A stretch of DNA of 64,000 bases, taken from an uncultured Cyclobacteriaceae bacterium. GTDB taxonomy: Bacteria; Bacteroidota; Bacteroidia; Cytophagales; Cyclobacteriaceae. The translations under genes were made by a program, and so were the position numbers. This document shows, piece by piece, positions 21,326 to 29,815 of this stretch. The stretch is taken from NCBI GenBank assembly GCA_905479015.1, contig CAJQKV010000012.1:1-64000 (forward strand). The letters are read 5' to 3'. Position 1 is the stretch's first letter. Each line of letters starts with the position of its first letter. The notes under the pieces are model-generated. The model was not told the DNA's origin. It ran no database searches and worked only from the letters and a program-made list of their open reading frames with translations.

Positions 21326-22387
21326 TTAAAATTCAATACTCATTTGAGGATTGAATACTTTGTTAAATTGTAAATTTGAGATGCCGATTCCCAGCAGTCG
21401 AATACCTGCTTCATGTAACAAGTCTTCGTTAAGCAAAGACTTGATGAGTACTTGAATTTCAGAAAGATTTAAAATGACTTCTTTTTGTGATTTGCTTCTC
21501 GTGATTTGCTTAAAATTTCCATACTTTATTTTAAGACTTATGGTTCTACCTTGTGCAGATTGCAGCTGATATCTTCTAAAAACTTCTTCAGCGATGGGTT
21601 TTAGATGAGATTGGATATCTGAAAGGTTCATCAAGTGATGTGAAAAGGTATTTTCGGCGCTGATAGATTTTCTTTTGCGATCGGGCAGGACAGGTCTGTG
21701 GTCAATGCCACGGACCACATGATAATAGTAATTCCCCTGCTTACCATATCGCAGACACAAATCATCCAATGTTTTCGCTTTTAGGTCTTTGCCTGTAAAA
21801 ATACCTGCATGCTTCATTTTTTCGGCAGTGACCTTGCCTATACCATGAAATTTTTTGATCGGGAGTTTTTCAATAAATACCGTTGCGTTTTCGGGTAAAA
21901 CCACGTAAAGTCCATTGGGCTTTTCCATATCAGAGGCGATCTTGGCCAAAAACTTATTGAAGGAAATGCCTGCAGAAGCAATTAATCCTGTTCTTTCTTT
22001 GATTTTCTTCTTGATATCTATGGCGATGAGGGTAGCTGATTTCAGACCGATTTTGGGATGAGTGATGTCCAAAAAAGCTTCATCGAGCGATAAGGGTTCA
22101 ACCAAGTCTGTATATTCATGAAATATGGCCCTAATTTCATTAGAGATTTCTTTGTACCGATCAAATCGGGGTTTGACGAAAATAAGTTGTGGACACAATT
22201 TTGCGGCAATTCTGGAAGATAAGGCAGATTTTATCCCAAATTTCCGAGCTTCATAACTCGCTGCTGCAACGACGCCACCCTCTTTATTCCCCCCCACGGC
22301 GACGGGCTTTCCTCGTAAATCAGGGTCGTCATTTTGCTCAACAGATGCATAAAAGGCATCCATGTCAATATGTATTATTTTACGCAT
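21326..22387 (-). CDS. dinB: DNA polymerase IV (Y family)
   Basis: A 353-residue translesion polymerase. The palm begins with RKIIHIDMDAFYASVEQ, and the catalytic acids continue in PLSLDEAFLDIT (about 105). FNKFLAKIASDMEKPNG and the helix-hairpin-helix KFHGIGKVTAEKM are present, and the little-finger domain begins around 245. ATG 22387 is chosen because it gives the family N-terminus and lies about 20 bases downstream of a TATTTTTG box. The alternative TTG at 22414 falls within that box. The C-terminus has no clear beta-clamp motif beyond the hydrophobic NLQFNKVF segment. It is transcribed downstream of the lipid cluster, probably separately. Confidence 0.95.
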   Translation of the reverse strand: MRKIIHIDMDAFYASVEQNDDPDLRGKPVAVGGNKEGGVVAAASYEARKFGIKSALSSRIAAKLCPQLIFVKPRFDRYKEISNEIRAIFHEYTDLVEPLSLDEAFLDITHPKIGLKSATLIAIDIKKKIKERTGLIASAGISFNKFLAKIASDMEKPNGLYVVLPENATVFIEKLPIKKFHGIGKVTAEKMKHAGIFTGKDLKAKTLDDLCLRYGKQGNYYYHVVRGIDHRPVLPDRKRKSISAENTFSHHLMNLSDIQSHLKPIAEEVFRRYQLQSAQGRTISLKIKYGNFKQITRSKSQKEVILNLSEIQVLIKSLLNEDLLHEAGIRLLGIGISNLQFNKVFNPQMSIEF

Positions 22388-22411
22388 TCGTTGGGTGAAT
22401 ACCTGTGAAAT

Positions 22412-22419
22412 CAAAAATA
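22412..22419 (-). promoter_or_regulatory. -7 box upstream of dinB
   Basis: Minus strand TATTTTTG matches TAnnTTTG, about 25 bases upstream of the dinB ATG at 22387. A TTTG is present 12 bases further upstream, closer than normal. The surrounding sequence is A/T-rich, so chance matches are likely. Confidence 0.35.
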
Positions 22420-22437
22420 ATCAATTATTAGCAAAAT

Positions 22438-22971
22438 TTAGGATTCTAAAATGCCATGCTTTTCTATACAAAAAGCCATGTAATTACCATGATGGGTTAA
22501 AGAAATGGGAAATTCTTTTTCTTCGTTTACACAAAGCAGGGGCAGTTGATTTTCATCTAGAGTAAAGCTGATATTCAAAGGCTTGAAATAGGCAATGATT
22601 CTTGCACGAATGATTTTTTGAGAAGACGCTTTTTGATGATTCATCCAAATTTGATGCATAAGTTCCATCGATGGTGGTGCGGCCGTAGCCACTACATAGC
22701 TGGGTGTGGTCTCAACAGTGCCCAATAGCTTTTTGGAAGAGAAATGTAAATCATTTGAAAAAATAACTGTAATGAGTTTTGGATCGAATGATTTTAATTG
22801 CCGTTTACTCTTGAAAACAGCCTCTTTAGCACTCCAAACGATCCAATAGAGTAGGATGGGATCTATATTTTCAGGGTATTGATCACCTTTGGCTTTTATG
22901 AACCGTAGATGATCCGCAGTACGTAGATGTAATAGGGGATCTTTTATATCAACGATATCAATTCCAATCAC
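22438..22971 (-). CDS. 4'-phosphopantetheinyl transferase
   Basis: A 177-residue transferase that would activate acyl carrier proteins by moving phosphopantetheine from CoA to a serine. The metal-binding MIGIDIVDI opens the protein and WSAKEAVFK, the family's second signature, lies around residue 46-54. The size lies between AcpS (about 125) and Sfp types (about 220). It overlaps the upstream small secreted protein gene by 4 bases and closes an operon containing its probable substrate, the ACP at 23397-23651. This supports a dedicated pair, but whether it also serves the housekeeping ACP is unknown. Confidence 0.87.
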   Translation of the reverse strand: MIGIDIVDIKDPLLHLRTADHLRFIKAKGDQYPENIDPILLYWIVWSAKEAVFKSKRQLKSFDPKLITVIFSNDLHFSSKKLLGTVETTPSYVVATAAPPSMELMHQIWMNHQKASSQKIIRARIIAYFKPLNISFTLDENQLPLLCVNEEKEFPISLTHHGNYMAFCIEKHGILES

Positions 22972-23357
22972 TCAAGATAGATATTATGTTTTTTTTCGTA
23001 TACGATTAAACCAGTTTGGCCATTTTTACTAGATTCATAGGCATAATCATAGCTTTCGCCATTTTCGAAAATTTCATATCGGATCATCCAATGGGTATCG
23101 ACAATAAAAGCATTCAATATTGATCCATTCTCAAGCTGAATCTTTATGACATTAGTTCCTTTTTTTAAGAAGGGATTTAAATCAAGGGATAAATTTAATT
23201 CAGGATTTCCGTCGATGAATTGGCTATCAAAAACAAGTTCATCATTGACAAAGGCATAGACTCTGTTGTCTATTTTAGAAAAAGCGATACTGTAATTTGG
23301 AGTTTGAGTAATGGGAAATAAAAAACAAATGAGCCAAAAAGAAAATATGGATTTCAT
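22968..23357 (-). CDS. small secreted protein of unknown function in the lipid operon
   Basis: I do not recognise this 129-residue protein. The N-terminus (MKSIFSFWLICFLFPITQ) looks like a signal peptide, and the mature part has alternating hydrophobic residues that suggest a small beta-sandwich (NYSIAFSKIDNRVYAFVND, then GTNVIKIQLENGS). It ends in a 4-base overlap with the phosphopantetheinyl transferase and starts 39 bases after the ACP gene, so it is part of the transcript. A periplasmic or outer-membrane role in handling the cluster's lipid is conceivable, but nothing in the sequence proves it. Confidence 0.68.
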   Translation of the reverse strand: MKSIFSFWLICFLFPITQTPNYSIAFSKIDNRVYAFVNDELVFDSQFIDGNPELNLSLDLNPFLKKGTNVIKIQLENGSILNAFIVDTHWMIRYEIFENGESYDYAYESSKNGQTGLIVYEKKHNIYLE

Positions 23358-23396
23358 TTAGATGGATTTTAAATACGGACTTGATAAAAGGATGAC

Positions 23397-23651
23397 TTAT
23401 TTTTCTTGCACCTTACCATGAATGACATCAATGGCTTGGCCGATGGTACCCATTTGCATGATGACATCATCCTCTATCATGATATCATATTTTTCTTCAA
23501 CATCTAATACAATATCTACAATGTGTGCAGAATTTATTTTTAGGTCATTGATGAGATCATGTTCAAGTGTCAAATTATCTAGAATCTCTTTCTCAGGAAC
23601 ATAAATCGCTATGATATTTTTTAATTCTTCTTGTATTTTATTTTTATCCAT
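23397..23651 (-). CDS. acyl carrier protein, dedicated to the lipid cluster
   Basis: An 84-residue ACP that carries growing acyl chains on phosphopantetheine. Four-helix ACP layout is seen: an acidic helix I (residues 3-17), then LINDLKINSAHIVDIVLDVEE, with the attachment serine at Ser41. The usual Asp-Ser-Leu is Asn-Ser-Ala here, so the recognition helix differs from housekeeping ACPs. It overlaps the ketosynthase gene by 8 bases and precedes the phosphopantetheinyl transferase. Divergence plus location suggest a specialised carrier. Confidence 0.88.
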   Translation of the reverse strand: MDKNKIQEELKNIIAIYVPEKEILDNLTLEHDLINDLKINSAHIVDIVLDVEEKYDIMIEDDVIMQMGTIGQAIDVIHGKVQEK

Positions 23652-24924
23652 CTTGCCATTTTCTTAGTACTATACTGCAATTTAAATCACCAAAAGCAAA
23701 ATTGGCTTTAATAGCGGTATTAATTTCTTTATCAACGGTCTTCATAGGAATACGATCCAATGGAATTTCCGCAGTAATATCAGGATCTACTTCTTTGATA
23801 TTGTAGTTACCATGAACAAATGATTTTTCCATTTGAATCAGGGTAGCCACCAATTCGATGGATCCGGCACCGGCAATACAATGTCCAATCATTGATTTAG
23901 CGGTATTGATGAGTGGAAATTGGTCTTGGGTGCATCCGAGGGCCTTTTTCCAATTTTTTATTTCAGTAGAATCACCTTTTGTACCGGTCAGATGCCCACT
24001 GATAAGATCTATTTCATCACTACTTACCTTTGCTTGATGTAAGCTATTCTTCATACAATGAATGACCGCATTGGAATTAGGAGCCGTCATACTTCCCCCA
24101 TCTCGGAAACCACCTGAATTGACATCAGCACCCAAGATTTCGGCATAGATTTTAGCCCCACGACTTTGAGCACTTTCAAGTGTTTCTAACACCATGGCCC
24201 CTGATCCACTTCCCGGAATAAATCCAAGTCTACTATTGCACATGGGCCGCGAACCATTGGTTGGATCTTCGTTGGAATCACTGGTGAGTATCCGCATCGC
24301 ATCAAAGGCACCCCAAATAAAAATCCCATCTCCTTCGGTACTTCCACACAGCATTCTTTTGGCCTTTCCTAATTTGAGATGTTCATAACCTAGTAATACC
24401 GATTCAGTACCTGTAATACATGCGGAGGAGTTTGATAATACTCTGTTGCCTAGACCTAAAATTTTATTGAGATAGGCGGCGGCTCCACTGCTCATACATT
24501 GTGGTATGGCCCGTGAACCGAGTCGCTTATTATTACCTGATATTATTTTAGACCATATATCAGCAGTTGTGCTATCCATCCCTAATGCTCCAGAGCCAAT
24601 GACCATACCAGAATCAAAATCTATTTGATCATTGCTATAGCTTAATCCAGCATTTTCCCAAGCCTCAAATCCTGCTAGGCAGGCATAGATAATGGCCTTA
24701 TTCTCTAATTTATTTTGATAATAATCATCAAAATAGCGCGCTTTATACGCATCAGTGATCAATGGTCTAGCGGCAATTTGACATCTGAAATTTAATGACT
24801 GAGATTCTTCAAAAAAACGGATACCTGAGCGACCTTCTTTTAATGCTACTTCAAAATCTGCTGCGCCTAATGCGTTGGGCGCCACGACACCAATACCTGT
24901 AATGACAACTCTATTATTGATCAA
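23644..24924 (-). CDS. beta-ketoacyl-ACP synthase (FabF/KAS-II-like)
   Basis: A 426-residue thiolase-fold condensing enzyme that extends acyl-ACP with malonyl-ACP. The catalytic triad is intact: Cys169 in NSSACITG, His311 in SGHLTGTKGD and His348 in SMIGHCIAGAG. The motifs differ from housekeeping FabF: the first His sits in GHLTGT rather than HGTST, and the C-terminal glycine motif is NFAFGDLN rather than SFGFGGHN. This fits a specialised KAS. It overlaps the dehydratase (11 bases) and ACP (8 bases) genes in one operon. Confidence 0.93.
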   Translation of the reverse strand: MINNRVVITGIGVVAPNALGAADFEVALKEGRSGIRFFEESQSLNFRCQIAARPLITDAYKARYFDDYYQNKLENKAIIYACLAGFEAWENAGLSYSNDQIDFDSGMVIGSGALGMDSTTADIWSKIISGNNKRLGSRAIPQCMSSGAAAYLNKILGLGNRVLSNSSACITGTESVLLGYEHLKLGKAKRMLCGSTEGDGIFIWGAFDAMRILTSDSNEDPTNGSRPMCNSRLGFIPGSGSGAMVLETLESAQSRGAKIYAEILGADVNSGGFRDGGSMTAPNSNAVIHCMKNSLHQAKVSSDEIDLISGHLTGTKGDSTEIKNWKKALGCTQDQFPLINTAKSMIGHCIAGAGSIELVATLIQMEKSFVHGNYNIKEVDPDITAEIPLDRIPMKTVDKEINTAIKANFAFGDLNCSIVLRKWQDG

Positions 24925-25381
24925 TTTTATCTTTATTTACAATCATACCTGAAAATACACCTTTGCAAATTAATTGATTCGTCAGAATATTTTTACAGGT
25001 TACTAAACATTTTAATTTATTGAATCGATAATATATTTTTTCGGAAGTTACCTCCAGCTGATCTTCAGGATATACGGGACCTAAAAAATCAACAGCAGCA
25101 GAGGTGAATATGGGTACAAGCAGCGCTTCTTGATCCTTTAATTTTTCTTTGGCAAGATAAATTCCATAACAAACCAATCCAATTTGAGCCATGATTTCAA
25201 TTAAGATGACTCCGGGTGTTATGGGATTATTAGGAAAATGACCTTGATAGAAATATTCATCTTTTTTAAGTTGATAATAACCTTTGGACCCATTTTCAGT
25301 AATTTCTTCTAACGCATCCACAAATAAAAATGGGGGCTGGTAGGGCAGTGCTTCGATAATTTCTTTTAGTGATTGTCTCAT
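24914..25381 (-). CDS. 3-hydroxyacyl-ACP dehydratase, hotdog fold (FabZ-like)
   Basis: A 155-residue hotdog-fold protein that removes water from 3-hydroxyacyl-ACP. The FabZ-type active site is QGHFPNNPITPGVILIEIMAQ-like, with His48 and Glu62 as catalytic residues, and YQPPFLFVDAL precedes it. It lies between an enoyl-reductase-like SDR (4-base overlap) and the ketosynthase (11-base overlap). With these two and a ketoreductase it would complete an elongation cycle. Chain length and any isomerase activity cannot be inferred. Confidence 0.9.
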   Translation of the reverse strand: MRQSLKEIIEALPYQPPFLFVDALEEITENGSKGYYQLKKDEYFYQGHFPNNPITPGVILIEIMAQIGLVCYGIYLAKEKLKDQEALLVPIFTSAAVDFLGPVYPEDQLEVTSEKIYYRFNKLKCLVTCKNILTNQLICKGVFSGMIVNKDKIDQ

Positions 25382-26157
25382 CCCATTAAATGTTCTCCAC
25401 CATCGACAAACATTACATTACCATTAATCCAGTTTGATTCAGGTAGGGTCAATAGATAAATGGCGTTGGCAATATCTTCGGGTAGTGTCATGCGACCCAG
25501 TGGGTTTCTTTTTGAAGCTTCCTCAATGAGTTCTTCATAATTAGGGATGAATCGCAATGAAGGGGTATCCGTAATTCCGGCATTGATGCAATTGACCCGT
25601 ACGCCAAAGGGAGCAAGTTCTACCGCTAAGTATTTAGAGAGTATTTCTAAGGATGATTTTGCCATAGCTACGGCGCCATAACCTTTCCAGTAACGGGCAC
25701 TACCTGCAGAGGTTAGGGTGACAAGCCTGCTACCGGACTTCAAGAGTGAATGATCTTTTAAGGTTTGAACCCACGTTAAAACGTTTGTCGCCATGGCATC
25801 TATAGTAAGTGCTATATCTTGTGCTGTGAGGGTGGGTTGATCCTCTTTTGATACAAAAGGCTTTAGATTGCCTCTTGAAATGGCATGCAAAACCAGATCA
25901 AAGGAAAGGTTTGGGACCTGAGCAGTAATCAAAGCAAGGGTTTCATTGATCCTTTCTTTATTGGTGCCATCTACATTAAAACTGATTACTTTTTGCCCTG
26001 TTTTTTTTATTTCATCAAGATGTTCATTGAAGGCAGGTATCAAAGACCGTCTGTCTCGATGGATGATGATCAGATTAAAACCATGTTTACTTAATTTCTG
26101 GGATGTGGCCAGGCCCATACCACTTGACCCTCCAATAATTAAAGCCCATTTTTTCAT
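25378..26157 (-). CDS. FabL-like enoyl-ACP reductase (SDR family)
   Basis: A 259-residue short-chain dehydrogenase. The NAD(P) motif is GGSSGMGLA (9-17). The active site is Tyr160 with Lys167, a Tyr-x6-Lys spacing that marks enoyl reductases (FabI/FabL/InhA) rather than the Tyr-x3-Lys of ketoreductases. Segments such as GSARYWKGYGAVAMAKSSLE and RFIPNYEELIEEASKRNPLGRM are what I recall for Bacillus FabL. It therefore probably reduces trans-2-enoyl-ACP. A ketosphinganine reductase role is less likely on this spacing, but not excluded. It is translationally coupled to the dehydratase and separated by 1 base from the GNAT gene. Confidence 0.85.
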   Translation of the reverse strand: MKKWALIIGGSSGMGLATSQKLSKHGFNLIIIHRDRRSLIPAFNEHLDEIKKTGQKVISFNVDGTNKERINETLALITAQVPNLSFDLVLHAISRGNLKPFVSKEDQPTLTAQDIALTIDAMATNVLTWVQTLKDHSLLKSGSRLVTLTSAGSARYWKGYGAVAMAKSSLEILSKYLAVELAPFGVRVNCINAGITDTPSLRFIPNYEELIEEASKRNPLGRMTLPEDIANAIYLLTLPESNWINGNVMFVDGGEHLMG

Positions 26158-26158
26158 A

Positions 26159-27277
26159 TTATATAGATTTAATAAAACATCTTCTACGGATAACAGTAGT
26201 TACGTTTCCTCTAAACTCATTCCAAAGATTAATGACGTTATGATTATCCTCAAGCATAATCGCTGTATTTACCATGCGCACTTTATTTTCAATAAAATTA
26301 GATAAAAGTTCAACGAATATTAACTGACTAGCCCCTAACTTTTGATATTCAGGATTTACACCGATAAGCAGCATGTCCAAAGTTTCGTTCTTCTGAAAAG
26401 CTTGAAGTAAATGGATAAAGCCAAAAGGATAAAGCTTTCCTTTGGCTTTTTGAAGTGCTTTTGAGAGAGAAGGCAAGGTAATCGCGCAAGCGACAACGTC
26501 ATCTTTTTCATTGACGATGATGGTTACAAATTCTTTTCTAACGAACCCCAAGTAGGCATCGACGTAATATTCAATTTGTTTGTCGTTCAAAGGATAAAAC
26601 CCATAGAGGTTGGTAAAAGAACTATTTAAAGTTTGAAAGATAGCTTTTGAATAGGGTTTTAATTGAGATTTACTTTTAATTTTCTTTGCCTCAAGTTTGA
26701 ATCTGGTTTTGATCAAAGAGGCCCCTCTCATCATTCTTTTGGGTAATTCTTTGGGTACTACGCCACGACCTTCTAGCCAGTCACAAGCTTTTGAAAACCC
26801 AAGGCTTTCAAAATGCGAAGCGTAATAAGGGAAATTATAAATAGTTGCTTGCGTAGCCAATTCATCAAAACCATCGATTAAAGTACCTTCAAAGTCAAAG
26901 TCCGTAAACCCCAAGGGTCCATGAATACCAGTAATACCAAATGATTTGGCCCAATCAATGATACCTTGGATCAGGGCAGTAGATACTTTTTTGTCATCAA
27001 TGAAATCAATCCAGCCAAATCGAACGAGGTTTTTATCTTCTTTTTCAGCATCTAATATGATTCCTGCAATTCTACCTACAATCACACCTTTTTCTAAGGC
27101 TAACAATAATTTCACCTGACTGATTTCAAATACTGGATTTTTTGCAGTCAGGGAGCTGAGTTCAAAACTAATAAGTGGGGGGACGTAGGAGGGGCAATTT
27201 TTGTATAAATTGAAAGGGAATTTAATGAATTTCAGAAGTGTGGGTCGGTCTTTTACTTCTACTAATACTAGACTCAT
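26159..27277 (-). CDS. GNAT-fold N-acyltransferase, candidate bacterial ceramide synthase
   Basis: A 372-residue protein with a C-terminal GNAT-like core (about 240-372): VVACAITLPSL, LLIGVNPEYQKLGASQLIF with an acyl-CoA-binding-type Gln-x-x-Gly-Ala, and MLEDNHNVINLWNEF. The N-terminal part (FPFNLYKNCPSYVPPL) is typical of a large Bacteroidota GNAT family. In Caulobacter, the ceramide synthase bCerS has been reported to be an atypical GNAT protein encoded near serine palmitoyltransferase. Position next to such a synthase suggests the same N-acylation job here. That function is inferred from context and recalled family knowledge. Confidence 0.72.
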   Translation of the reverse strand: MSLVLVEVKDRPTLLKFIKFPFNLYKNCPSYVPPLISFELSSLTAKNPVFEISQVKLLLALEKGVIVGRIAGIILDAEKEDKNLVRFGWIDFIDDKKVSTALIQGIIDWAKSFGITGIHGPLGFTDFDFEGTLIDGFDELATQATIYNFPYYASHFESLGFSKACDWLEGRGVVPKELPKRMMRGASLIKTRFKLEAKKIKSKSQLKPYSKAIFQTLNSSFTNLYGFYPLNDKQIEYYVDAYLGFVRKEFVTIIVNEKDDVVACAITLPSLSKALQKAKGKLYPFGFIHLLQAFQKNETLDMLLIGVNPEYQKLGASQLIFVELLSNFIENKVRMVNTAIMLEDNHNVINLWNEFRGNVTTVIRRRCFIKSI

Positions 27278-27670
27278 GTAAAATGCTTTTCTTTATAAAT
27301 GATCATGCGACCTTTTTTTTATATAAATGAGTTCGTTGATTTCATGCTAAAGCTCAGGCTTCTGTAATCAAGTAAATTTTTCATTCTACCTAATAGCCAG
27401 TATTTCCCTCTCATTCATTTTTTATACACTGTCTCGGTTCTTATTTCTAAAAGCGAGAATATATATTGCTTAAAGCTAATCGAATTTTCAATAATTGTAC
27501 TTTTTTCGTTCCTTGTTCAGGACTTTTTTTATTGAGTATAGATACGAGATAGGGGTAGGAGCATGAAACATTATCTTTATAGGATTTGATACCTCCAAGT
27601 ATTTTAATTTTATAGAAAAGGGATACTATTTAACTAAAAAGATGAGGCTATAGAATAAAAAAAGCAATCA
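27278..27670. other. gene-free interval between the GNAT and alpha-oxoamine synthase genes
   Basis: This 393-base AT-rich stretch separates two same-strand genes of the lipid cluster. I see no open reading frame with protein-like composition, no tRNA, and no hairpin followed by a T-run on the minus strand. No full TAnnTTTG box is close to the GNAT start. It may contain the promoter of the seven-gene operon, or an untranslated spacer. Confidence 0.6.
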
Positions 27671-28879
27671 TTATTTATGGGCTTCAATAGACAAAGGAAC
27701 CTCTAATTTTTTTGCACATTGATAGATGGTATCAATAGCTTTATCTATTTGCTCACGGGTATGTGTAGCCATTAAAGAGAACCTAATCATGGAGTTCTCA
27801 GGGGAGACTGCTGGTGCCACAACGGGGTTAACAAAAACACCTTTACTCAATAGCAAATTGGTGAGCTCATAAGTTTTTTTATCATCTCCGATGTATAAGG
27901 GGATGATTGGTGTCTCAGTTTTTCCAGTATTGAATCCTAATGACTTAAATGCAGCAATCGCATATTGAGTATTGTTAAGAAGTTGGAGTCTTAATGAATC
28001 ATCAGATTCAATAATATCTAAAGACGCAAGTGCCGCTGCTACCGCAGCAGGCGTGGGACTGGCACTGAAAATCAATGAACGTGAGTTGTGTTTAATATAC
28101 TCAACAGTAGAGGCGTCGCTAGCTATAAATCCACCAATTGAAGCCAATGATTTACTGAATGTCCCACCAATGAGATCCACTTGATCTTCAACATCAAAAT
28201 GAGAAGCAGCTCCTGCACCGTGTTCTCCAATCACTCCTATGGCATGGGCACAATCTGACATGACCACCGCATTGTATTGTTTTGCGAGTTGGGTGATTCC
28301 TTTGAGATCAGCTAAATCACCTTCCATACTAAAGACACCATCTACTACTATCAATTTCATCTCAGCATCTCTAGAAAGTCGTAGTTTTTGTTCTAAGGAA
28401 ACCATATCATTGTGCTTGTACAAGACATAAGGAGCCCTAGAAAGCCGTGCACCCTCAAAGATTGAAGCATGGTTGAGACGATCTAAAATAATTATGTCAT
28501 TGGGCCGGGTAATCGTAGGAATAACCCCTAAGTTGACCTGAAATCCAGTAGTGAATAAAAGTACAGCTTCTTTATTTAAAAAACGTGCCAGTCGGTGTTC
28601 TAATTCTATATGTAGGTCGGTTGTTCCGTTTAGAAATCGTGAGCCAGCCACACTGCTCCCATATTTTTTTATGGCATTCTCACTAGCCATTTTCACCTTA
28701 GGATGTGTCGTAAGACCCAAATAACTATTGGATCCAAACATTAAAACTTTTTTACTATTAATGACTACTTCTGTGCTTTGCTCGGATTCAATCACACGAA
28801 AAAAAGGATACAAGTCTTGTTTCCGCAACAGTTCAGGTGCCAATAATTTATTGAATCGTTCAGAGAGTATTTTGATCAT
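27671..28879 (-). CDS. serine-palmitoyltransferase-like alpha-oxoamine synthase with a DCAH motif
   Basis: A PLP enzyme that condenses an amino acid with an acyl thioester to give a 3-keto long-chain base. It is very close in layout to Bacteroides SPT: QDLYPFFRVIES, KVLMFGSNSYLGLT, KYGSSVAGSRFLNGTTDLH, VDGVFSMEGDLA, and the PLP lysine in GGTFSKSLASIGGF (Lys272 counted from the longer frame). Family members normally read Asp-Glu-Ala-His at the PLP-binding strand; here it is Asp-Cys-Ala-His-Ala. ATG 28879 (402 residues) is chosen over 28966 because it matches family N-termini and a promoter box lies just before it. Serine or cysteate is the likely amino acid. Confidence 0.87.
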   Translation of the reverse strand: MIKILSERFNKLLAPELLRKQDLYPFFRVIESEQSTEVVINSKKVLMFGSNSYLGLTTHPKVKMASENAIKKYGSSVAGSRFLNGTTDLHIELEHRLARFLNKEAVLLFTTGFQVNLGVIPTITRPNDIIILDRLNHASIFEGARLSRAPYVLYKHNDMVSLEQKLRLSRDAEMKLIVVDGVFSMEGDLADLKGITQLAKQYNAVVMSDCAHAIGVIGEHGAGAASHFDVEDQVDLIGGTFSKSLASIGGFIASDASTVEYIKHNSRSLIFSASPTPAAVAAALASLDIIESDDSLRLQLLNNTQYAIAAFKSLGFNTGKTETPIIPLYIGDDKKTYELTNLLLSKGVFVNPVVAPAVSPENSMIRFSLMATHTREQIDKAIDTIYQCAKKLEVPLSIEAHK

Positions 28880-28890
28880 GCTAAGGTGTG

Positions 28891-28898
28891 CAAAAGTA
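28891..28898 (-). promoter_or_regulatory. -7 box for the alpha-oxoamine synthase gene
   Basis: Minus strand TACTTTTG followed by C matches TAnnTTTGC completely. Transcription would start only a few bases before the ATG at 28879, giving a very short leader. This decides against the longer frame starting at 28966. Confidence 0.55.
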
Positions 28899-29257
28899 AA
28901 TATTAACTTTTCTAAAACATTACTTGGACCATATAAATTCAATTTTTTTAAAAAACGATTGTTCATTAAAAAAAACAGGAATCGGCTCTGTTTTTGATAA
29001 AATTATGATTGAATTTTGAAAAGAGCATGTCCTGGAACGGTCCATAATTTCATGAAATATTTATAGAGGCTCATGAAAGGCTTTAAATAATAATTCTGTT
29101 TTGCTTATTTTTTTAGCAATTTTTGAATGTCCTATCTAGAATATTGATTATAGTTTTTTTGGGAGATATTTTGGGAATTAAAAATAGGGGCCTCTGCGTC
29201 ACAATATAAACAGATAGCAACACATTAGATTAAGAAAAATTTGAGAAATAGGCTACT
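28899..29257. other. gene-free interval upstream of the alpha-oxoamine synthase
   Basis: About 360 AT-rich bases between the promoter of the lipid gene and the end of the DUF2911 gene, both read leftwards. I see no ORF with protein-like character, no RNA gene and no convincing terminator hairpin. The part nearest 28900-28940 must hold the -33 region of the downstream promoter. Confidence 0.55.
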
Positions 29258-29815
29258 TCAATAACTGAAAGGGACTTCGATTTTAGTCTGATCCCAAGCA
29301 AGTTTCAATGTGGCCTGATTTTCATTGAGAGTTTCAAACTTGATGGCAAAGGCCTCAACAACCTCATTCGTGGACTTTACCTTCACGTTAAGTCTGAGTA
29401 CATCTTTTTTACTATCGTATCGATAGGCGCCCCAGATATCAACATCCGTATTGAAAATGAGGGTCCATTCATCTTTTTCTGGAATGGTAAACAAAGTGTA
29501 AGTACCAGCGGGTAATGTTTTTGAGCCAAATGTAAGTGGCTGGTAAGCAATGAATTCAGTAGCTTCATTGGCACCGGTTCTCCAAATTTTTCCGTAAGGA
29601 ACCATCTTACCAAAAACAGGCCTATTGTTTTTTTGAGGTCTGCCATAGGTAATACGTGCTATCGCTTTTTCTCCGGGCGAGTGATCATGAGCAAAGTTAT
29701 CAGGCAAATACGCCATATCCATAGGGCTCTTGTCTATACCTTTAAATTCTTGGGCTTTGATGGGTTGAAGGGAGGTAGCTACCGCTATAAAGATGAAGAC
29801 TAAAATATTTTTCAT
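29258..29815 (-). CDS. DUF2911 secreted protein
   Basis: A 185-residue exported protein starting MKNILVFIFIAVATSLQPIKAQ, a clear signal peptide. The mature domain has the DUF2911 hallmarks: RITYGRPQKNNRPVFG, GKIWRTGANEAT, LPAGTYTLFTIP and EWTLIFN. The family is common in Bacteroidota and its biochemical role is not established to my knowledge. ATG 29815 is used because the longer frame from 29899 puts 28 unrelated residues before the signal. It appears monocistronic, downstream of glpD on the same strand with a 73-base gap. Confidence 0.87.
   Translation of the reverse strand: MKNILVFIFIAVATSLQPIKAQEFKGIDKSPMDMAYLPDNFAHDHSPGEKAIARITYGRPQKNNRPVFGKMVPYGKIWRTGANEATEFIAYQPLTFGSKTLPAGTYTLFTIPEKDEWTLIFNTDVDIWGAYRYDSKKDVLRLNVKVKSTNEVVEAFAIKFETLNENQATLKLAWDQTKIEVPFSY

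Follow-up and report, generated by a model that had tools for sequence, protein, structure and literature searches.

We describe an eight-gene cluster from an uncultured Cyclobacteriaceae bacterium, located in a 64,000-nucleotide stretch of DNA (the window; CAJQKV010000012.1, positions 1 to 64,000) that lies on contig C12 of genome G000, a draft of 2.93 Mb in 51 contigs that is 99.88% complete. Eight open reading frames (ORFs), all open and intact, follow one another on the minus strand from position 28966 to 22438. In reading order they encode a serine palmitoyltransferase (SPT)-like alpha-oxoamine synthase (27671..28879, with the longest ORF starting at 28966), a tandem-GNAT N-acyltransferase homologous to E. 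coli YghO (26159..27277; GNAT hereafter), a FabL-like short-chain dehydrogenase/reductase (SDR) resembling enoyl-acyl carrier protein reductases (ENR; 25378..26157), a FabZ-like hotdog dehydratase (HD; 24914..25381), a FabF-like elongating ketosynthase (KS; 23644..24924), a dedicated acyl carrier protein (ACP; 23397..23651), a small beta-rich protein that is probably secreted or periplasmic (22968..23357), and a 4'-phosphopantetheinyl transferase (PPTase; 22438..22971), the presumed activator of the dedicated ACP. A gap of 393 bp separates the SPT gene from the downstream GNAT gene, and comparison of loci identified this interval (27278..27670) as the position of the reductase gene cerR in relatives. 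From GNAT onwards the genes are tightly packed: by their coordinates GNAT and ENR are 1 bp apart, ENR and HD overlap by 4 bp, HD and KS by 11 bp, and KS and ACP by 8 bp, while the small protein begins 39 bp after ACP and overlaps PPTase by 4 bp. A first-pass annotation of this DNA had described eight same-strand genes, the last seven overlapping or nearly touching. This description was confirmed by the intact ORFs, by gaps of at most 39 bp and by recurrence of the core order in 18 loci of the bacterial family, and its family assignments were upheld by Pfam and NCBIfam profiles, the small protein matching no family in either.

The synthase contains a PF00155 domain, and its best NCBIfam model was SerpalmtaseCFB, at 581.5 bits against a cut-off of 640. 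Its best PDB chains were serine palmitoyltransferases (431 bits), compared with 225 bits for the cysteate enzyme 28eh, and the next alpha-oxoamine synthases of genome G000 scored 267 and 208 bits. Alignment showed that the pyridoxal phosphate-binding Lys272, His166 and Arg395 are retained. Because intact relatives are 398-405 amino acids long, translation probably starts at the ATG at 28879 rather than at 28966. In the sulfonolipid enzyme SulA, Lys281 is reported as diagnostic (PMC9304779). In an alignment of 40 synthases this position is occupied in the window by Ala302, and the column contains Ala in 37 rows, Lys in the two SulA-type rows and Asn in one Kbl-like row. A sulfonolipid product was rejected on the basis of this residue, and the synthase can be narrowed to the predicted serine type. 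The first-pass annotation had held that the product could not be settled from sequence; this can now be relaxed for the amino acid, and the final lipid is still a matter of inference.

The GNAT protein gave a weak match to PF00583 and full-length homology to E. coli YghO (1e-53); when its profile was run against 90 ORFs from two stretches of E. coli DNA, YghO was the sole match. Since yghO is listed together with the ceramide N-acyltransferase CC_1154 in PMC9386255, homology would place the window protein among bacterial ceramide synthases (bCerS type). A structural search returned tandem acetyltransferases and N-myristoyltransferases, a common fold that reveals no substrate. GNAT-family matches at 1e-100 were found in 88 of 395 genomes of the phylum and 16 of 390 of the order. 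The family is widespread on its own, and its use as a cassette-specific marker was ruled out.

The remaining enzymes form a small type II fatty-acid cassette. ENR contains PF13561, with FabL as its best NCBIfam model (below cut-off), and Tyr160-x6-Lys167 was invariant in all 17 aligned sequences. A Y-x6-K spacing marks enoyl reductases. The only two PDB sequences matched at 1e-20, 3oic and 1ulu, are both enoyl-ACP reductases, and together with the spacing they ruled out the SDR as a ketoreductase. HD matched PF07977 (1.7e-16), with FabZ models best, and has an HFPNNPITPG motif. KS (PF00109 and PF02801) has a complete Cys-His-His set, with Cys169, His311, His348 and Lys343 invariant in 18 of 18 aligned sequences, and the D-L-x-I-N-S-A site of ACP (PF00550) was invariant in 17 of 17. 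PPTase matched PF01648 at 30 bits and has GIDIVD and WSAKEA motifs. ORFs and profiles revealed no 3-ketoacyl-ACP reductase among the eight genes. Elsewhere the genome encodes a FabF and AcpP-like ACP pair (locus L037), a second, weaker PPTase match on contig C8, and a FabG above the NCBIfam cut-off on contig C14. The cluster is therefore an addition to the housekeeping fatty acid synthase (FAS), from which it can borrow the 3-ketoacyl reductase that it lacks.

To examine conservation, KS was searched in a set of 148 genomes of the family, and SPT was searched by profile at 1e-120. Eighteen genomes from 10 genera have a KS of at least 54% identity, and six more have one at 45-49%; the remaining matches listed were at most 34% identical, and one genome had no match. 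SPT was present in 30 of the 148 genomes, comprising all 18 with KS at the higher level and 12 of the remaining 130 (p 1.4e-15 by Fisher test, a value overstated by the relatedness of the genomes). The conserved order is SPT, usually CerR, GNAT, ENR, HD, KS, ACP, sometimes the small protein, and PPTase. A six-frame profile scan of the 18 loci detected SPT, GNAT and ACP in all 18, KS in 17, CerR in 16, HD in 15, ENR in 14, PPTase in 12 and the small protein in six; in G060, KS lies on another contig than the rest of the cluster. The order thus recurs beyond chance, as the proposed check on gene-order conservation had called for. HD and ENR are nested, with no ENR lacking an HD in the 18 loci or in two further ones, L064 (an SPT-type locus from a metagenome-assembled genome (MAG) named Cyclobacteriaceae) and L065. 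The reduced forms include loci of the KS and ACP type (G007, G088 and G133) and of the KS and HD type (G106). A tandem KS pair occurs in G032 and G103.

In phylogenies, the SPTs of cassette loci formed one clade (20 rows, SH-aLRT 99), in which the one member without a cassette is a second copy in G133. The GNATs of cassette loci likewise formed one clade (23 rows, SH-aLRT 96), which also takes in the GNAT of that G133 copy and those of two cassette loci without SPT. This second SPT and GNAT pair (L150, G133:C94) has no cassette; the same genome also carries the cluster. Within the genus of the window organism, G041 carries the cluster, and G109 and G144 have no match to SPT, GNAT or KS at the 54% level. 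G144 retains syntenic flanks, between which the genes running from a DinB-like polymerase to SPT (window ~21.3-29.2 kb) are missing; the whole stretch therefore comes or goes together there. In G109 neither the flanking glpD-like gene nor the locus was found. The DinB-like polymerase gene itself (window 21326-22414) falls inside this missing block.

CerR differs from the rest of the conserved set. Among the 18 family loci it was found in 16, with 14 copies in the gap between SPT and GNAT and two at the cluster end, and in the sphingolipid cluster of E. coli B the CerR profile matches the epimerase at 170 bits. The two exceptions are the clusters of the window and of G041. No CerR orthologue was found in genome G000: the best match was an RmlD-type protein at 61 bits, and that of G041 reached 90 bits over part of its length, compared with 381-422 bits in three CerR-bearing genomes. 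A search for a pseudogene of cerR within the 393-bp gap found none, the highest score reported being -1.6 bits, and no relocated copy was found elsewhere in G000. The first-pass annotation had called the cluster self-contained, missing only a 3-ketoacyl reductase. That reductase is indeed absent, with FabG encoded elsewhere, and so is CerR, which 16 of the 18 family loci encode.

From the observed genes, catalytic residues, homologies, gene order and co-occurrence we infer the reactions, the enzyme that the ACP serves, its chain and the lipid finally made, and we propose that the cluster is probably an operon for a dihydroceramide-type sphingolipid with a private acyl supply. In this model PPTase would convert the dedicated ACP to its holo form, KS would elongate an acyl primer on it, and the housekeeping FabG would reduce the 3-keto group, after which the private HD and ENR would complete the cycle and leave the chain on a carrier reserved for the pathway. 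SPT would condense L-serine with an acyl thioester to give 3-ketosphinganine, which GNAT would N-acylate. In most relatives CerR would then reduce the 3-keto group, a step that the genus of the window organism would have lost or replaced. The outline of the first-pass annotation, in which an acyl-ACP is built, condensed with an amino acid and the product N-acylated, is kept; given two genomes with SPT elsewhere, SPT as the client of the ACP is not the sole reading.

Which enzyme receives the chain is best judged from loci where the genes are separated. In G005 and G087, both found through KS, GNAT lies beside KS and ACP, and the only SPT, a conventional one, is on another contig. We therefore favour GNAT, and give a nearly even chance to the idea that the private ACP carries its N-acyl donor. 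The alternative that the ACP feeds SPT, as a Bacteroidota counterpart of the Rhodobacterial carrier AcpR, with the cassette building the long-chain base rather than the N-acyl chain, is less probable but deserves serious weight. Rhodobacterial SPTs are reported to be served by this dedicated carrier and to prefer acyl-AcpR (PMC9386255), Alistipes SulA is reported to prefer acyl-ACP over acyl-CoA (PMC9304779), and the cassette-linked SPTs form a separate clade. Moreover, a sister cassette accompanies type III polyketide synthases (PKSs), where it presumably serves the condensing enzyme; by analogy this would point to SPT here, and no GNAT was labelled in those operons. The two SPT-elsewhere genomes speak against this alternative, but they are two loci only. 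One of this pair, L035, stops 336 bp beyond GNAT, which leaves its neighbour out of view, and three more GNAT-cassette loci (L211-L213) came from a search with GNAT itself and so provide no test. Within the stretch scanned, four other loci found through KS (L033, L058, L071 and L122) contain no GNAT, SPT or type III PKS. In all 18 SPT loci GNAT sits between SPT or CerR and the cassette; this position is not decisive alone, because conventional SPT operons carry GNAT without a cassette (12 family loci, some at contig ends: SPT 12, GNAT 9, CerR 8). That one ACP serves both SPT and GNAT seems to us rather unlikely.

The sphingolipid reading as a whole has further points to answer: it is built on genes whose chemistry is predicted from sequence, the synthase falls below the SerpalmtaseCFB cut-off, the GNAT family is often solitary (34 of 45 loci have no SPT or cassette gene within ~1.5 kb), and with CerR missing from the genus a finished ceramide is not assured. 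The last point raises the possibility, which we regard as unlikely, that this genus makes unreduced (3-keto) ceramide-like lipids. The empty gap and the weak genome matches in G000 and G041 are as this would predict, and Caulobacter without cerR is reported to accumulate oxidised ceramide (PMC11087976); on the other side, the same reduction is attributed to an SDR of a different kind, BT_0972, in Bacteroides (PMC9278070) and to other reductases in sulfonolipid makers (PMC11211663). A synthase that uses cysteate to make a sulfonolipid is very improbable, given Ala302 and the margin between the PDB scores. What speaks for it is that SulA-type (Lys) synthases adjoin a GNAT of the window's family in L223 or lie ~4 kb from a cassette in L213, so that this GNAT family need not be serine-specific. 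Equally improbable is the reading of the cassette as a remnant, or as a duplicate of the housekeeping FAS, that plays no part in making the lipid and lies near its genes by accident. Its content does vary (HD in 15, ENR in 14 and PPTase in 12 of the 18), but all 18 loci contain ACP and 17 contain KS, the remaining genome having its KS on another contig, the catalytic residues are invariant, the genes overlap, and the whole block is absent from the one same-genus genome with a readable locus, G144. A private KS, HD, ENR, ACP and PPTase set within an amino-lipid operon thus stands as the first-pass annotation had it; the set is conserved in relatives and separate from the FabF and AcpP pair.

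The sphingolipid operon is one of several settings in which the cassette occurs. A scan of named genomes with the KS alignment, from which the best 80 loci were kept, gave 75 with a type III PKS, three with SPT and two with neither; the type III PKS label denotes similarity to the protein of a family locus, L036, that contains PF00195 and PF02797. Profiles detected no type III PKS among the eight genes of the window. The type III PKS operons usually have a FAD oxidoreductase and a methyltransferase ahead of the type III PKS gene, followed by (ENR)-HD-KS-ACP-PPTase, and this arrangement (L066-L142) recurs in records from Flavobacteriaceae, Sphingobacteriaceae, Chitinophaga, Spirosoma and Saprospiraceae. 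In f43 genomes G625, G548 and G576, and in G087, GNAT-(ENR)-(HD)-KS-ACP is accompanied by a family-2 glycosyltransferase, and SPT is not among its immediate neighbours (L211, L212, L213 and L056); such loci perhaps make a glycosylated N-acyl lipid. Judged by these neighbourhoods, the cassette KS-HD-(ENR)-ACP-PPTase appears to be portable, used with SPT, with type III PKS, or with GNAT and a glycosyltransferase. The tie between cassette and SPT holds as a dedicated operon set in the family; it is not specific to SPT, the commonest partner among the kept loci being type III PKS. In a KS tree that used 25 of the 75 type III PKS rows, all cassette KSs separated from FabF (support 100). Most SPT-type KSs grouped together (19 rows, support 93) with the type III PKS KSs elsewhere, but those of G112, G100 and G028 fell on the PKS side (94) and that of L065 outside both, so the tree would neither support nor contradict a single origin of the SPT-type KS.

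Several further observations concern the cluster and its relatives. The small protein gave a predicted model with a pLDDT of 77.5 that is almost all beta; none of its PDB matches reached E 0.001, and the top two rows, both with MmpS5 (E 0.02-0.03), are a weak lead only. It occurs in six of the 18 family clusters, the window included, either adjoining PPTase or upstream of SPT. A hydrophobic N-terminus, judged by eye, suggests that it is probably secreted, and it is perhaps a lipid-handling accessory. Upstream of SPT, a TAnnTTTG element, a Bacteroidota promoter motif, begins at position 28898, where the range given in the first-pass annotation ends. The non-coding 202 bp just upstream of GNAT (27278-27479) are 95.5% identical to G041, compared with 94% for the PPTase and ENR genes, 86% for the SPT coding region and 52% for the region upstream of SPT; this stretch is a possible leader or regulatory element, and no Rfam RNA reached the gathering threshold in window positions 22000-29500. 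The two SulA-type synthases mentioned above are L213:1350-2576 (G576) and L223:7303-9736 (G628), and the GNAT family of the window is accordingly listed here as a candidate N-acyltransferase of sulfonolipid synthesis. Locus L065, whose contig is labelled Rickettsiales MAG, carries SPT, GNAT and the cassette, with an SPT that groups with the second copy of G133; it may be either a misbinned contig or a transfer. The KS of G061 is identical to that of the cultured Marinoscillum sp. MHG1-6, whose locus L063 has the complete cluster; Marinoscillum is a genus assigned to Reichenbachiellaceae at NCBI and presumably placed in Cyclobacteriaceae by GTDB.

Comparison with known systems helps to locate the cluster. 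Caulobacter and E. coli B are reported to have genes for SPT, the dedicated carrier AcpR, its ligase AasR, CerR and CerS (PMC9386255, PMC11324152), in line with the first-pass remark that SPT clusters with an ACP and an ACP-loading enzyme are known from Caulobacter. Compared with this Rhodobacterial spt-acpR-aasR-cerR-cerS system, using E. coli BL21(DE3), the window cluster shares SPT, a dedicated ACP and a YghO/CerS-type GNAT, and its relatives also share CerR; it differs in having no AasR orthologue or CerR, and in having the KS-HD-ENR cassette and PPTase. The ACP profile gave E. coli AcpR 27 bits. AasR was taken to be the fatty acyl-AMP ligase encoded next to spt in E. coli; a search of G000 yielded no orthologue of it (best 41.9 bits, 30% identity over 98 residues), and among six cassette genomes only G028 had a strong match (203 bits, 33%). 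The conventional Bacteroidota SPT-GNAT-CerR operon of the same bacterial family, represented by L156, has these three genes in common with the cassette clusters but has no cassette. L156 carries a myo-inositol-1-phosphate synthase, in whose place L157, L158 and L160 have a 441-amino-acid ORF; the L156 SPT scores 736 bits to SerpalmtaseCFB and lies outside the cassette clade, and the conventional-operon GNAT is much closer to YghO (profile 307 bits versus 175 for the window type).

SgaAB of Pseudomonas fluorescens MYb115 is similar in that an SPT-type synthase has its own chain builder in the cluster, but as described in the available text of PMC12134224 this builder is an iterative type I PKS whose chain goes into the sphingoid base, with no discrete KS, HD, ENR or ACP and no GNAT. 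SulA of Alistipes belongs to the same alpha-oxoamine synthase superfamily, reportedly takes acyl-ACP and is followed by N-acylation, and differs in its Lys281, which is Ala here (PMC9304779). The ars system of Azotobacter, in which a dedicated FAS (ArsA) hands acyl-ACP directly to type III PKSs (ArsB and ArsC) as condensing enzymes (PMC6274091), has the same logic of supply and resembles the sister operons (L036, L057 and most of L066-L142), not the window. In the mostly open-access literature searched we found no described SPT-GNAT operon with a discrete type II cassette and its own PPTase, in agreement with the first-pass suggestion that a KS-HD-ENR trio with SPT may be less described. We therefore regard the cluster as a previously undescribed variant of the bacterial ceramide operon.

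The acyl donor of Bacteroidota SPTs is disputed, being given as acyl-CoA in PMC11324152 and argued to be acyl-ACP in PMC9304779, and a cluster that brings an ACP and elongation enzymes of its own allows a direct test of the acyl-ACP view. The common cassette also ties sphingolipid synthesis to type III polyketide lipid synthesis. More speculatively, it could be an acyl module traded among Bacteroidota lipid pathways, serving ceramide-synthase GNATs, GNAT with a glycosyltransferase, and type III PKS in turn. The nested sets KS and ACP, KS, HD and ACP, and all the enzymes together might then set a 3-hydroxylated, an unsaturated or a saturated chain, respectively. The nested loss of HD and ENR would thereby offer a sequence-based prediction of the N-acyl chain, with the content of an operon foretelling the N-acyl group of its lipid.

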